Origin: Candidatus Sulfurimonas baltica
GTDB lineage: Bacteria > Campylobacterota > Campylobacteria > Campylobacterales > Sulfurimonadaceae
DNA: 64,000 nucleotides
Assembly: GCF_015265455.1 (NCBI RefSeq)
Contig: NZ_CP054492.1
Location: 1,736,001-1,800,000, forward strand
Reading direction: 5' to 3'
Made by a program: the position numbers and the translations under genes. Shown one piece after another: positions 11,056 through 27,198 of this stretch (position 1 is the stretch's first letter; each line of letters starts with the position of its first letter). The notes beneath the pieces are model-generated. The model saw nothing but the letters and a program-made list of their open reading frames with translations, searched no databases and had not been told where the DNA came from.

Positions 11056-11460
11056 ATGTTAATAACTCGTGCTAGTGAATATGCGATTCTTTCCCTAATA
11101 GTTTTGTCAAAAGCAGATTCTCCAATGGACAGCGAAACCCTGTCTAAGCAACTCTCGATACCTAAGAGTTTTTTAGCAAAAATTCTGCAATCTCTCGCCA
11201 AGTCAAAAATATTAAAATCATACAAAGGGGTGAATGGCGGGTTTGCTCTTTTGCTTGACCCAGAAGATATCAACATGTTGCAAGTTATGGCTTGTGTAGA
11301 GGGCAAGACTCCAACTGTTTTTGATTGCTCAATATCAGATATTGATTGTCCATCGGAAAAAGCCCACCTGTGTTCTATCTGGCCATTTTTAAGTAAACTT
11401 CAAATAAAGATAGATTCATTTTTAGCAGAGATGACTTTAGCTGATATTCTCAAAAAGTAA
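11056..11460 (+). CDS. Rrf2 family transcriptional regulator next to flhA
   Basis: 134-residue DNA-binding protein. The N-terminal ~75 residues are a winged helix-turn-helix (SETLSKQLSIPKSFLAKILQSLAKSKILKSYKG followed by the family wing GVNGGFALL). The C-terminal part has three cysteines spaced C-x6-C-x7-C (VFDCSISDIDCPSEKAHLC), close to the Fe-S ligand pattern of IscR/NsrR-type members, so it may sense iron-sulfur status, NO or redox. It lies 54 bases upstream of flhA on the same strand, and the same pairing is found in Campylobacter. Target genes are not known. Confidence 0.85.
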   Translation: MLITRASEYAILSLIVLSKADSPMDSETLSKQLSIPKSFLAKILQSLAKSKILKSYKGVNGGFALLLDPEDINMLQVMACVEGKTPTVFDCSISDIDCPSEKAHLCSIWPFLSKLQIKIDSFLAEMTLADILKK

Positions 11461-21804: not shown

Positions 21805-22251
21805 ATGTCATCTGATACAAAAATACAATGGGACGATTCTTATTCCATTGATGTAGACACAATTGACAACCAACATAAAAATTTGTTTGCATTAGTAAAT
21901 AAGCTATATGACCTAGATGAAATAAAAAACACAAAAGATGATCTTAAAAAAATTTTATATGAGTTTAATGATTATATAAATGTTCATTTTGCAGCTGAGG
22001 AGAAGTATATGTCTTATATTGGCTTTCCTGAACTAGAGCAGCAAAAAGAGACACATGAAAGCTTTAGAAAACTTTTGATTGAGATTATTAGCACCCCTGC
22101 AAAACTTGAAATTATCAAGACTAAAATGCGAGTATTTGCAAAACGTGCTCTTATTGATCATATATCAAATGAAGATGTTAAAATAAAACAATTTAAACAA
22201 CAAAAACAAGAATCCGAAGAGAAAGAAAAGATAGATAAATCGGAAGTTTAA
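21805..22251 (+). CDS. Bacteriohemerythrin
   Basis: 148-residue non-heme di-iron protein that binds O2 (or NO). The hemerythrin ligand pattern is present: WDDSYSIDVDTIDNQHKNLF (first His near 24), HFAAEEKYM (His and Glu), KETHESF (His) and the final LIDHISNEDVKIK (His and Asp). A lysine- and glutamate-rich tail follows. It could supply or buffer O2, or bind NO, next to the nor locus. It is transcribed alone toward the convergent Rrf2 gene. Confidence 0.9.
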   Translation: MSSDTKIQWDDSYSIDVDTIDNQHKNLFALVNKLYDLDEIKNTKDDLKKILYEFNDYINVHFAAEEKYMSYIGFPELEQQKETHESFRKLLIEIISTPAKLEIIKTKMRVFAKRALIDHISNEDVKIKQFKQQKQESEEKEKIDKSEV

Positions 22252-22279: not shown

Positions 22280-22693
22280 TTATAATTTGAAATTTTCACC
22301 TTTAATACTTTCTAGTGTACTATTTTCAAACATTTTCTTTATCAGTTTCTTGGGTTCTGCCCACTGATCATGCAAAGAGCATCTATTTTTTCCATCACAC
22401 ATGCCAATACCAAGTAAACATTGTTGATTATTGATTTGTTCGTTGAATTCATTTAAAATATCAATCACACTTATGTTTGATGCAGGTTTAGCCAACTTAT
22501 AACCGCCCTCTCTTCCCTGTACAGATATAATAAATTCTGCTTTTACCAATTGAGTCATAATTTTTGTCAAAAACTTATATGGAATATCAAGCATTTGTGA
22601 CAACTCTTTTGCACTGCAAAGCTTAGTGTCATTTATATTGGCAATATAACTCAAGACTCTAATTGCATATTGAGATGTATTACTTAATTGCAT
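22280..22693 (-). CDS. Rrf2 family Fe-S transcriptional regulator (NsrR-like), probable nor regulator
   Basis: 137-residue Rrf2 protein. The N-terminal winged helix (SQYAIRVLSYIA, SAKELSQMLDIPYKFLTKIMTQLVKAEFI, wing GREGGYKLAKP) is followed by three cysteines in CLLGIGMCDGKNRCSLH (C-x6-C-x5-C), nearly the spacing of the Fe-S ligands in NsrR and IscR. It is divergent from norCBDQ, and two copies of a dyad lie between them, so I infer an NO- or redox-responsive repressor of norC and of itself. The start has GGGGAG seven bases upstream. Confidence 0.85.
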   Translation of the reverse strand: MQLSNTSQYAIRVLSYIANINDTKLCSAKELSQMLDIPYKFLTKIMTQLVKAEFIISVQGREGGYKLAKPASNISVIDILNEFNEQINNQQCLLGIGMCDGKNRCSLHDQWAEPKKLIKKMFENSTLESIKGENFKL

Positions 22694-22714
22694 ATTCTCC
22701 CCTTTGAATTTAAC

Positions 22715-22720
22715 ATTATA
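22715..22720 (-). promoter_or_regulatory. Putative -10 element for the Rrf2 (NsrR-like) gene
   Basis: TATAAT on the minus strand (in TTTAGTATAATGTTAA), 22 bases upstream of the regulator start. The first dyad operator (22745-22768) lies just upstream, over the presumed -35 region, compatible with autoregulation. Confidence 0.5.
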
Positions 22721-22744
22721 TACTAAATATCTATTAATACATTT

Positions 22745-22768
22745 AAATACTACTAAAAGGTAGAATTA
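22745..22768. promoter_or_regulatory. Operator-like dyad, copy 1
   Basis: AAATACTAC-TAAAAG-GTAGAATTA: two nine-base arms with seven of nine positions symmetric, around a six-base spacer. It repeats the sequence found 45 bases downstream and lies in the divergent regulator/norC promoter region. Likely binding site for the adjacent Rrf2 protein (inference). Confidence 0.65.
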
Positions 22769-22780
22769 ATATTTTCTTGC

Positions 22781-22786
22781 TACAAT
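22781..22786 (+). promoter_or_regulatory. Putative -10 element for norC
   Basis: TACAAT (five of six to consensus) lies between the two dyads. The start point it implies, about 22793, would fall inside the second dyad, giving a classic repression arrangement. TAGAAT inside the second dyad is an alternative. Confidence 0.35.
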
Positions 22787-22789
22787 TTC

Positions 22790-22813
22790 AAATACTACTT
22801 AGTGGTAGAATTT
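22790..22813. promoter_or_regulatory. Operator-like dyad, copy 2
   Basis: AAATACTAC-TTAGTG-GTAGAATTT: arms symmetric at eight of nine positions. It ends 15 bases before the norC start, directly before the ribosome-binding site, so protein binding here would block norC transcription. Confidence 0.7.
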
Positions 22814-22828
22814 ATAAGGAGAGTTATT

Positions 22829-23275
22829 ATGAGTGAACGTATTACTAAAAATATGGCTAGAAATATTTACTTTGGCGGAAGTCTTTTTGCTATTTTATTA
22901 TTTGCCGGTCTTACTGTGGATACTGTGCAAAAGATCCCAAAACTGACTAACAGTGACAAAATCACCGAGTCTGTTGCCCGCGGAAAGAATTTGTGGGAAG
23001 TTAACAACTGTGTGGGATGTCATACAATTATGGGAGAAGGCGCTTACTATGCACCGGAACTTGCTAATGTATTTGACAGAAGAGGCCTAAAAAATGAAGA
23101 AGTTTTTAAATCATATATGATTGGCTGGATGGCTGCACAGCCGCTAAGTGAGCCAGGCAGAAGAAAAATGCCTCAATTTAACTTAAGTGAAGAAGAAGTA
23201 AATAATATTTCTGACTTTTTAATCTGGACATCTCGTATTGACGATAACGAATGGCCACCAAACATCGAAGGATAA
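22829..23275 (+). CDS. norC: Nitric oxide reductase subunit C (cytochrome c)
   Basis: Membrane-anchored cytochrome c that delivers electrons to NorB. About 148 residues: one N-terminal transmembrane anchor (NIYFGGSLFAILLFAGLTV) and a periplasmic heme domain with CVGCH followed by TIMGEGAYYAPELANV, the NorC signature, and a C-terminal Met in RRKMPQF as axial ligand. I chose the ATG with AGGAGAG eight bases upstream (MSERITKNMARN); an earlier in-frame GTG/ATG would run through the operator. It is the first gene of norC-norB-norD-norQ. Confidence 0.95.
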   Translation: MSERITKNMARNIYFGGSLFAILLFAGLTVDTVQKIPKLTNSDKITESVARGKNLWEVNNCVGCHTIMGEGAYYAPELANVFDRRGLKNEEVFKSYMIGWMAAQPLSEPGRRKMPQFNLSEEEVNNISDFLIWTSRIDDNEWPPNIEG

Positions 23276-24664
<1,389 letters not shown>

Positions 24665-24673
24665 GAAAAACAT

Positions 24674-26398
24674 ATGGAAGAGAGCATTGGTAAGGTTTGG
24701 AACAAATTTTTAAATAAAAAAACAAGTAAGTCTCACAATGAGAGCCAAGTTTTTTTTACAGATAAAAGCAAATCTTTACAGATTTTTTATCACCTTTTAG
24801 GTGGTGAAAAAGGCAAAGATTTGAAAGTTACCGATAAGCGTTTTATAGATACCTCACGTTCATTTTTAGAAAAAATATCGGGTGCTGGTGACACTTTTTT
24901 TCTTGCTAATCAAGATGAAAAAGGTATTTACCTCCCTGCATCACTTGCCTATTTTCCGACAAAAGAGCAAAATGAGATGCTATATTTTTGGCTGATTGCT
25001 CAAGCTACAAAAGTAGATGCAAACGGAGGTTCTCATGAAGATAAAAATATAATTGCATCTCAAATTCTGCTAAAAAAATACCCCGGTTTTAAAAACTTTT
25101 ATGAGACAGCTACAGATTATCTCAACCTGAAATATGGTGAAACTTATCCATCTCCGATGTGGATATACCCATCTTTGTCTGGCAAAAACAAATACAGTGA
25201 TTTTGAGGATGAGGAAGAAGCTGTCAGAGGTGAAGAGAAGCCAAATAAGACAGATACTCTAAAGATGAAAAAACAGGCAAATCAGATAGATGACAAAAAA
25301 GAGACAGACGGTCTTTTAGCTTTTCTTCCTGATTCACTTATGAGCATTATGGAGCAGGTAAATGTAGATAGAAGCGAAGATGACAGTTTTGATGAAGATG
25401 CTCTTTACAATGCCGAAGATTTAGATGAAATAACTCTAGGTAGAAAAAAAGCAAATCTATCTGCAAGACTAAAGATGGACCTTGATTTAACGACAAACAG
25501 CAGTGAAGAGTACCCTCTTGGAAAAGGTCACTTTATTGATGAATGGGACTACTCTAAAGAAATTTATCTAAAAAACTATGTATGTATAAAACCTATAATC
25601 ACTACAAATATAGAACCGATTCCTTTACCTAAGCGTCTACAAAACATGGTAAAAAAGATTCAAAGCGAACTTGATTTAATGGAACTTGACCGTGTAAAAA
25701 ACAATAAATTGCCATATGGTGATGAGATAAATATAGATACATGGATTGACTACAAATGTCATCAAAACAAATCTGGACATCATCAAAAGTTTTATGAGAG
25801 TTTTGTTAAAAAAACGCGTGACATGTCAACTCTGATTCTGGCAGATATTTCACTCTCTACTGAAGCTGGAATCACTCAAGAGATTCGTATTATTGACATG
25901 ATTAAAGATGGACTAATGGTCTTTTCGGAGTCCCTTGAAAGATTGCAGGACAGGTTTGCTATATATGCCTTTTCATCTATTAAAAATAAAAATGTGCGTT
26001 TTCATATTATAAAAAATTTTAAAGAGAAGTACTCTAACTTAATACGCGGAAGAATAGATAGCATTAAACCAGGCTACTACACAAGGTTGGGTGCTGCAAT
26101 TAGAGAGAGCGGAAAAATTTTAAACAAACAACAGAGTCAAAACAAACTTCTGCTTATTATCAGTGACGGTAAACCAAATGATGTAGACAGATATGATGGA
26201 AGATATGGGATAGAAGACACTAAAAAAGCTATACAAGAGGTTAGAAAACTTGGTATCACCCCTTTTTGTATTACTATTGATTTAGAGGCAAAAGATTATC
26301 TCTCATACCTCTTTGGAAAAAATGGCTATGTTGTAGTCAGAGACAGCAAAAAGTTACCTAAAGTACTACCTGAAATTTATATGAACTTAACAAAATAA
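24674..26398 (+). CDS. norD: NorD-like VWA-domain protein for nitric oxide reductase maturation
   Basis: 574-residue cytoplasmic protein. The C-terminal ~200 residues form a von Willebrand A domain with a MIDAS-like motif (LILADISLSTEAG; later RLGAAIRES and LLIISDGKPND). The N-terminal part is unfamiliar and acidic in the middle (about 175-260). In NorD proteins the VWA domain pairs with the NorQ AAA+ ATPase to activate the reductase, probably by metal insertion into NorB. The DISLS motif replaces the canonical DxSxS only in small side-chain detail. Gene order norC-B-D-Q, ten bases from norB and eight from norQ. Confidence 0.88.
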   Translation: MEESIGKVWNKFLNKKTSKSHNESQVFFTDKSKSLQIFYHLLGGEKGKDLKVTDKRFIDTSRSFLEKISGAGDTFFLANQDEKGIYLPASLAYFPTKEQNEMLYFWLIAQATKVDANGGSHEDKNIIASQILLKKYPGFKNFYETATDYLNLKYGETYPSPMWIYPSLSGKNKYSDFEDEEEAVRGEEKPNKTDTLKMKKQANQIDDKKETDGLLAFLPDSLMSIMEQVNVDRSEDDSFDEDALYNAEDLDEITLGRKKANLSARLKMDLDLTTNSSEEYPLGKGHFIDEWDYSKEIYLKNYVCIKPIITTNIEPIPLPKRLQNMVKKIQSELDLMELDRVKNNKLPYGDEINIDTWIDYKCHQNKSGHHQKFYESFVKKTRDMSTLILADISLSTEAGITQEIRIIDMIKDGLMVFSESLERLQDRFAIYAFSSIKNKNVRFHIIKNFKEKYSNLIRGRIDSIKPGYYTRLGAAIRESGKILNKQQSQNKLLLIISDGKPNDVDRYDGRYGIEDTKKAIQEVRKLGITPFCITIDLEAKDYLSYLFGKNGYVVVRDSKKLPKVLPEIYMNLTK

Positions 26399-26406
26399 GG
26401 AAAAAA

Positions 26407-27198
26407 ATGTCAAATATATATTATTTATCACAAGCAAATGAAGTTGAACTTTTTGAAGCAGCATGTGAAATGAACCTGCCTATACTAATAAAAGGGCCTA
26501 CCGGCTGCGGTAAGACAAGATTTATAGAGGCGATGGGTGAAAAGCTGAATCGCAAAGTCTATACGGTAGTATGCCACGATGACTTAAGCGCTGCCGATTT
26601 AGTCGGTCGCCATCTTATAGATGAAAATGGAACTTATTGGCAAGACGGACCTCTTACAAAAGCAGTTCGAGAAGGTGGGATTTGCTATCTTGACGAGATA
26701 ATCGAGGCAAGAAAAGATACGACTGTCGTTCTTCACTCTCTTGCTGATTACAGAAGAGTCTTACCAATAGACAGAACCGGAGAGATGATTGAAGCTCACC
26801 CTGACTTTATGCTTGTTGTTTCATATAATCCAGGTTATCAAAATGTACTCAAAGGGATGAAGCCAAGTACAAAACAGCGTTTTATCTCACTAAGTTTTGA
26901 TTACCCTAAAGCTGATGTTGAAAAAGAGATAATTATCAAAGAGAGTGGAGTAGATGCAGATGTGGCGCAAAAACTTGTAAATATAGCAGGGGAGATTAGA
27001 CAACTTAGTGATAACGAGATTCAAGAAGCAGTTTCTACAAGGCTATTAATCTATGCAGCTAAACTTATTACCAAAGGTTTTAACCCTTACGATGCATGTA
27101 TTCACTCAATAGTTGAATCACTAAGTGATGAAGATGAAGTACTAAAAGTTCTGGAAAAATTAATAGGACTTCACTTCACAAAAAAAGATTTAATCTAA
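26407..27198 (+). CDS. norQ: NorQ-like MoxR AAA+ ATPase
   Basis: 263-residue ATPase of the MoxR/CbbQ/NorQ family. Walker A is GPTGCGKTRF (near residue 30), Walker B is GICYLDEIIEARKD, and sensor-1 is LVVSYNPGYQ; the family signature SFDYPKADVEKEIIIKESG follows. It works with NorD to insert non-heme iron or otherwise mature NorB. Last gene of the nor operon; a 79-base gap without a clear terminator follows. Confidence 0.92.
   Translation: MSNIYYLSQANEVELFEAACEMNLPILIKGPTGCGKTRFIEAMGEKLNRKVYTVVCHDDLSAADLVGRHLIDENGTYWQDGPLTKAVREGGICYLDEIIEARKDTTVVLHSLADYRRVLPIDRTGEMIEAHPDFMLVVSYNPGYQNVLKGMKPSTKQRFISLSFDYPKADVEKEIIIKESGVDADVAQKLVNIAGEIRQLSDNEIQEAVSTRLLIYAAKLITKGFNPYDACIHSIVESLSDEDEVLKVLEKLIGLHFTKKDLI

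Follow-up and report, generated by a model that had tools for sequence, protein, structure and literature searches.

Campylobacterota play an important part in denitrification at sulfidic interfaces and vents. The nitric oxide (NO) control described for them uses Crp/Fnr-type proteins: in the part of the report available to us (PMC8139620), NO and nitrate control in Wolinella is ascribed to regulators of this type, the Nss proteins. Like the system considered here, the Nss regulators serve an NO and nitrate response in Campylobacterota, but they belong to the Crp/Fnr family and not to Rrf2, and presumably bind another DNA site. According to the accessible excerpt of the study by Rodionov and co-workers (PMC1274295), the regulator NsrR occurs in Beta- and Gammaproteobacteria, Bacillus and Streptomyces with the consensus gATGyAT-N5-ATrCATc, and NsrR is predicted to target norB in organisms that include Neisseria; that excerpt mentions NssR of Campylobacter jejuni, and the words ‘epsilon’, ‘Thiomicrospira’ and ‘Sulfurimonas’ are absent from it. 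Among the matches listed in a search of the open-access literature, a scope separate from the predicted-regulon databases, no title describes an Rrf2 regulator of nor genes in Campylobacterota. Here we describe a candidate Rrf2 regulator, its exact putative DNA site and the promoter layout around that site, starting from a 64,000-nucleotide stretch of the genome of Candidatus Sulfurimonas baltica (hereafter the window).

An Rrf2-family regulator beside NO reductase genes

A gene for a 137-amino-acid Rrf2-family protein (22280–22693, minus strand) is divergent from four genes on the plus strand: norC, encoding the cytochrome c subunit of NO reductase (22829–23275, ATG at 22829; PF00034 and order with norB); norB, encoding the catalytic subunit (23282–24664; PF00115, 240 bits); a norD-like gene for a VWA protein (24674–26398; PF00092 and gene order, with no NCBIfam match); and a norQ-like gene for an AAA protein (26407–27198; PF07728 and PF08406, the CbbQ/NirQ/NorQ family). 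The convergent neighbour of rrf2 encodes a bacteriohemerythrin (21805–22251, plus strand; PF01814) and is a possible member of the regulon. A second Rrf2-family gene of the window (11056–11457, plus strand) lies, as read from the open reading frames, between rpsO-like and flhA-like genes.

The regulator belongs to the Rrf2 family by both PF02082 (101.5 bits, cut-off 30) and TIGR00738 (114.9 bits, cut-off 73.3). A preliminary description of this DNA had called it NsrR-like. The likeness extends to the Rrf2 family, the three cysteines, the adjoining NO-handling genes and a small regulon, as in Streptomyces coelicolor NsrR (the available part of PMC9338935). As a statement of membership the label is not supported: the protein scores 63 bits with the NsrR model NF008240, whose cut-off is 182, the residue at position 8 is not aspartate, and an IscR-type histidine is present in 33 of the 33 regulators linked to the dyad described below. 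The top-scoring specific NCBIfam model is IscR (TIGR02010), yet at 74.3 bits the protein is far under the cut-off of 207.55, and no specific model was passed. Over the five proteins of our Rrf2 profile (A1), the best E values were 3 × 10−17 for NsrR and 1 × 10−22 for IscR.

The cysteine motif C-x6-C-x5-C had been read correctly, and x2-H comes next (C92-x6-C99-x5-C105-x2-H108); each of the four is conserved in all 33 dyad-linked members. The pattern matches the C-x5/6-C-x5-C-x2-H of IscR, and H108 aligns with the ligand H107 of EcIscR (PMC5411485, seen in part), so that the Cys3-His ligand set of IscR is present. In S. coelicolor NsrR, by the same partial source, Asp8 is a cluster ligand, whereas the window protein has Gln8 and the 33 dyad-linked members have Q (20), E (8), K (4) or I (1) at this position, with aspartate in 0 of 33. 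The regulator also departs from EcIscR at residue 43, which is Thr here and Glu there (PMC9338935, in part), and in its place beside NO reductase genes. Residue 43 falls within a nearly invariant motif of dyad-linked members, P-Y-K-[FY]-L-T-K at positions 38–44, which by alignment with IscR is the recognition-helix region. Within it, Y39, K40 and L42 occur in 33 of 33 dyad-linked members and T43 and K44 in 30 of 33; K44 is found in 14 of the 27 remaining regulators. No isc or suf gene is adjacent to rrf2 in the window, where the neighbours are the hemerythrin and nor genes; elsewhere, annotation covered the nor homologues and ten representative neighbours.

The AlphaFold model of the regulator has a mean pLDDT of 66.5, with a poor ligand loop (88–125), and its use was therefore limited to fold family. 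In a search of the PDB, this low-confidence model gave 36 fold matches (E ≤ 0.001), among which CymR, RsrR and IscR ranked high. By this model the protein shares the Rrf2 fold with RsrR, the redox-sensing regulator of Streptomyces venezuelae, which is among the top fold matches. In the partial source available, RsrR holds its [2Fe-2S] cluster through Cys, Glu and His, whereas all 33 dyad-linked members keep three Cys and one His, and the window protein has Gln, not Glu, at residue 8. Compared with the known NO-response switches, the distinctive points of the system are its operator sequence and its cluster ligands.

Two dyads flank the probable −10 of norC

The spacer between rrf2 and norC is 135 bp long and holds two 24-bp dyads, 45 bp apart from start to start: copy 1, AAATACTACTAAAAGGTAGAATTA (22745–22768, plus strand), and copy 2, AAATACTACTTAGTGGTAGAATTT (22790–22813, plus strand). 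On re-reading of the sequence, the coordinates and distance first reported for them were exact. Of nine arm positions, seven match in copy 1 and eight match in copy 2; the core in the window is TACTAC-N6-GTAGAA. A search of the window with the full pattern, allowing up to three mismatches, returned four matches, which are the two dyads on both strands, against 0.31 expected; 0 of 100 shuffles reached four. In the 2.74-Mb genome, exact TWCTAC-N6-GTAGWA occurs at only two places, the two dyad copies. With one mismatch, the slightly stricter core TACTAC-N6-GTAGWA occurs at 13 further places, 12 of them inside mechanically called open reading frames of at least 80 amino acids. An origin as chance repeats was rejected on the basis of the window shuffles together with the promoter-set shuffles and motif-blind word search reported below.

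The dyad had been described as unlike the classical NsrR consensus, and this is borne out by TACTAC-N6-GTAGWA set against gATGyAT-N5-ATrCATc as given in the excerpt of PMC1274295. An NsrR site was also rejected as the identity of the dyads on direct search: ATGYAT-N5-ATRCAT, at up to two mismatches, has no match within 22694–22828. We assume that the dyad operator differs from the type 1 site of IscR as well.

Between the dyads lies a putative extended −10 element of norC, G-C-TACAAT-T (22779–22787, plus strand), assigned from its conservation in 31 promoters (G in 30 of 31, C in 22, TA in 31, A in 30 and T in 31). Copy 1, the putative upstream operator, would then cover the −35 region of norC, and copy 2 its expected transcription start. 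Copy 2 was said to abut the norC ribosome-binding site, and it does, ending 2 nt ahead of the Shine–Dalgarno sequence AAGGAG (22816–22821, plus strand), which forms a conserved purine block. For the regulator, a candidate −10, TATAAT, can be read on the minus strand (22720–22715), and a 17-bp spacing would place the −35 at 22738–22743. Copy 1 had been drawn over this −35; it is indeed its neighbour, but the best −35 abuts copy 1 and does not lie under it. Neither the norC −10 nor the candidate regulator promoter is among the promoters listed by a sigma-70 scan.

Conservation of the dyads at norC

The preliminary description had named absence of the dyad from orthologous rrf2/norC spacers as what would speak against it, and the site withstood this check. 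Four divergent rrf2/norC loci were read first, in genomes G125 and G042, a Sulfurimonas MAG contig (L053) and a Sulfurospirillum MAG contig (L054); the scan of genome contigs had returned only two loci, both informative. Their regulators are 57–65% identical to that of the window. The dyad is present in all four, and both copies occur in four of five loci including the window, L053 having copy 1 only. In the larger set, the dyad occurs in 31 of 33 norC promoters when one mismatch is allowed (0.29% of shuffled sequences) and in 23 of 33 as an exact match (0.015%). Both copies, at up to two mismatches, stand at fixed places about 81 and 36 bp upstream of the norC start codon in 28 of 33 promoters, and in 25 of them both copies have at most one mismatch. 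The spacing is 45 bp in 14 cases, 46 in nine, 44 in three and 47 in two. These promoters and regulators are related by descent, and the counts taken from them are therefore not independent.

Alignment of 31 norC promoters, which excludes the two without a dyad (G491 and G497), shows four conserved blocks: copy 1, the extended −10 (G-C-TAnnAT-T), copy 2 (the strongest) and the Shine–Dalgarno region. Upstream of copy 1, most alignment columns hold less than 0.3 bits. Genome comparison thus shows both the conservation of the dyads and their geometry. Because the dyads are kept almost letter for letter and their flanks are not, they are very probably the regulator's switch for NO removal.

Within the family, norC is found in 34 of 151 genomes and the dyad, with at most one mismatch, accompanies it in 32 of these 34, a score made up of 29 of 31 norC upstream regions, G337 and G398 by way of the rrf2 spacer, and G386, which was added. 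An Rrf2 protein scoring above 120 bits to A1 is encoded in 29 of the 34 norC genomes, and the dyad stands at norC in all 29 (26 from the norC promoter set, G337 and G398 via the rrf2 spacer, and G386); the 120-bit line was set after the scores had been seen. The two genomes with norC and no dyad, G491 and G497, have closest Rrf2 relatives of just 104 and 107 bits, and other control must act on norC there. Their loci (L199 in G491, L200 in G497), in which the dyad is absent, encode NorC proteins with 75% and NorB proteins with 85–86% identity to those of the window.

The dyad tracks the Rrf2 regulator

A search of 397 genomes of the class with A1 found relatives at E ≤ 10−15 in 85; within the family, 71 of 151 genomes have one. 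The 79 distinct proteins were reduced to 60 non-redundant ones (less than 85% ungapped identity), a set that mostly leaves out relatives lacking a locus and scoring below about 110 bits, including those of G491 and G497. Up to 300 bp upstream of rrf2, the dyad occurs at 33 of these 60 genes (0.33% in shuffles) and is absent from the other 27 upstream regions. Downstream control windows contain it in 6 of 169 cases, and four of these six are pairs 45–49 bp apart at neighbouring genes, namely norC (G530), a gene for quinol-type NO reductase (qNOR; G127) and a gene for a small, secreted-looking protein (G408 and G383). A word search of the 60 upstream regions that was blind to the motif returned TAC-N9-GTA at the top (33 of 60 against 2.8 expected; Z = 16.8), whereas the highest Z across 60 shuffled sets was 5.97. 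Two G+C-rich words unrelated to the dyad, GCC-N14-ACG and GAC-N11-CGA, were also above shuffles, at 12 of 60 each, and perhaps reflect shared coding sequence of a neighbouring gene.

Mapped on the Rrf2 tree, presence of the dyad requires 13 changes; 500 shuffles never gave fewer (mean 19.8). Outside the group, none of nine Rrf2 genes has an upstream dyad, all being at three or more mismatches; 12 had been fetched, of which three proved to be clade members, and the remaining nine are the second Rrf2 gene of the window (11056–11457) and eight further ones. Proteins similar to this second Rrf2 in G405, G169, G125, G035, G491 and G497 likewise have no dyad upstream. Abundance as such carries no signal: in 28 genomes picked for having the regulator, the exact core occurs 55 times and a reversed control pattern likewise 55 times, and the signal therefore lies in position. 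By manual count, 42 of the 55 core sites are at an rrf2 or nor locus.

Conservation could have come merely from the sharing of divergent spacers, and this was rejected, since norC keeps its site or sites in five genomes in which rrf2 is not divergent from it. The regulator gene lies downstream of norCBDQ in G169, G416, G387 and G476 and in tandem upstream in G530. In G169 and G416, norC keeps the pair and rrf2 has a one-mismatch dyad of its own; norC has one good and one weaker copy in G387, copy 2 only in G476 and the pair in G530. Genome comparison thus ties the dyad to the regulator: as far as these sequences can tell, the site goes with the regulator whatever the target.

The association has exceptions. 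Among the 28 distinct core regulators, those scoring 165 bits or more, six are encoded by rrf2 genes that lack the dyad (G348, G386, G476, G510, G562 and G539); the dyad nonetheless stands at norC in G386, G476, G562 and G539, and in G510 a second NorCB-like gene pair lies beside rrf2 with no dyad. Dyads at norC were found together with no Rrf2 above 120 bits in G526 (best 89.8 bits), G544 and G548, assemblies that are 88%, 82% and 89% complete, and G035, outside the family, has norC with a single one-mismatch dyad and no close Rrf2 found. Bit score is no sharp border, because two dyad-linked regulators score only 114–115 bits and four relatives of about 107–111 bits (L147–L149 and L169, the last in genus group g94) have no dyad.

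Genes next to the dyads

Across genomes, the genes beside dyads encode cytochrome c-type NO reductase (cNOR), qNOR, a two-subunit haem-copper enzyme, globins, hemerythrin, NnrS and NrdD, as annotated with Pfam and NCBIfam for one representative of each kind. The qNOR gene was identified at L072 (PF22085 and COX1), with kindred N termini at L077 and L046. The neighbour at L138 is a globin that, among the NCBIfam models, matches flavohaemoprotein best, with similar N termini at L096, L098, L133, L139, L141 and L163, and L094 has a bacterial-type globin. In G405, dyads lie in the spacer between rrf2 and a divergent hemerythrin gene, and NnrS is encoded downstream of rrf2. Two dyads 47–48 bp apart separate the regulator from a divergent gene for NrdD, the anaerobic ribonucleotide reductase, at L144 and L145 (G561 and G566). 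One perfect dyad precedes the gene for the two-subunit haem-copper enzyme at L069 (1–1280; G354), L070 (G160) and L071 (G078); the L069 enzyme passed no named NCBIfam cut-off, and we take it to be possibly an NO reductase of the gNOR kind. The perfect palindrome TACTAC-N6-GTAGTA is found at several of these loci. Most of the annotated targets are thus, by comparison, related to NO.

Proposed mechanism and alternatives

We propose that the adjacent, divergent Rrf2 regulator uses the dyad pair as its operator, a reading to which, on the comparative evidence, we give a probability of about 0.85. A dimer of the regulator would sit on each dyad. The two sites, copy 1 on the −35 region and copy 2 on the transcription start, would bracket the extended −10 of norC, and dimers bound on both sides of it would keep RNA polymerase away from norCBDQ. 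Since copy 1 also adjoins the promoter of the regulator gene, it could provide autoregulation. The protein probably carries a [2Fe-2S]-type cluster on three Cys and one His, as IscR does; NO from denitrification would damage or nitrosylate this cluster, the protein would let go and NO reductase would be made. From the layout, the ligands and the targets we infer that the protein binds, that it represses and does not activate, that it carries a cluster and that NO is the signal, and the whole chain of operator, repression and NO as signal, although less secure than the operator itself, seems to us probable. A distinct NO-sensing Rrf2 site in Campylobacterota had been suggested at the outset. 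The part that stands is a recurring Rrf2 operator at nor, on the strength of conservation, fixed geometry and a site that follows its regulator; as to NO sensing, the targets give good reason to infer it, most of the annotated ones being genes for the removal or handling of NO.

The same operator and regulator might instead answer to Fe–S supply, iron, oxygen or redox state, as IscR and RsrR do, with nor switched indirectly. The IscR-like ligand set with H108 in every dyad-linked member, the rank of IscR among the specific NCBIfam models (74 bits, far under its cut-off) and the presence of NrdD, an anaerobic radical enzyme, beside dyads all point in this direction. We consider it unlikely, given that most annotated targets handle NO (cNOR, qNOR, globins, NnrS and hemerythrin) and that the regulator of the window has no adjacent isc or suf gene. 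The regulator could also act the other way round and activate nor on binding, in a holo or nitrosylated form, since some Rrf2 proteins, IscR among them, can activate. The layout is that of a steric block, with copy 2 over the expected start and copy 1 over the −35 region, and the norC promoter has a conserved extended −10; both make activation improbable. These two alternatives are variants inside the core operator claim.

Two others would displace the regulator from the dyads. Another factor, for example a Crp/Fnr-type Nss regulator, might bind them, with Rrf2 a mere neighbour; NO regulation in Wolinella by Nss proteins (PMC8139620, as far as available) and the dyads in G035 and three incomplete genomes in which no close Rrf2 was found would fit this. 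Against it, the dyad travels with the Rrf2 group over unrelated targets and gene orders, and G491 and G497 have norC, no dyad and only distant Rrf2 proteins. Fnr-type half-sites are TTGA/TCAA, and the dyad has none. We give this reading a slim chance. A role for the dyads as RNA hairpins, one of them hiding the norC ribosome-binding site, would suit the place of copy 2 in the expected 5′ leader beside the Shine–Dalgarno sequence, but copy 1 precedes both the −10 of norC and the expected start of rrf2, and an inner A–A mismatch, which pairing would not favour, is the commonest form in both copies. Because copy 1 would fall outside both transcripts, as judged from the inferred starts, we reject this reading as very improbable.

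The operator reading permits a broader proposal, which we advance tentatively and rate a little below even odds: that these regulators form a lineage of their own among NO-responsive Rrf2 repressors, with Cys3-His ligands of the IscR type and the operator TACTAC-N6-GTAGTA, and that this lineage fills the role of NsrR in Campylobacterota and controls unrelated NO-handling enzymes (cNOR, qNOR, the two-subunit haem-copper NOR-like enzyme and globins), in many cases by way of two sites on either side of the −10. If so, NO sensing arose on an IscR-like cluster independently of NsrR. The group is a natural setting in which to learn whether a cluster of the IscR type can act as a sensor of NO. The dyad motif also provides a means of finding NO-response genes across many genomes.

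Further dyad pairs

Several dyad pairs lie at genes other than those of the window. In G169 (L163, 6379–8204), a gene identified by eye as NnrS-like is divergent from norC across the dyad pair, which may for this reason serve both genes. In G127 (L042), a pair of one-mismatch dyads 48 bp apart, about 411–477 bases past the rrf2 start, fronts a qNOR gene located after rrf2 on the same strand; this pair surfaced as a control window. At L168 (4072–4137; G408) and L068 (G383), a pair 48–49 bp apart precedes a gene adjoining rrf2 for a secreted-looking protein of 106–112 amino acids, possibly a further member of the regulon.
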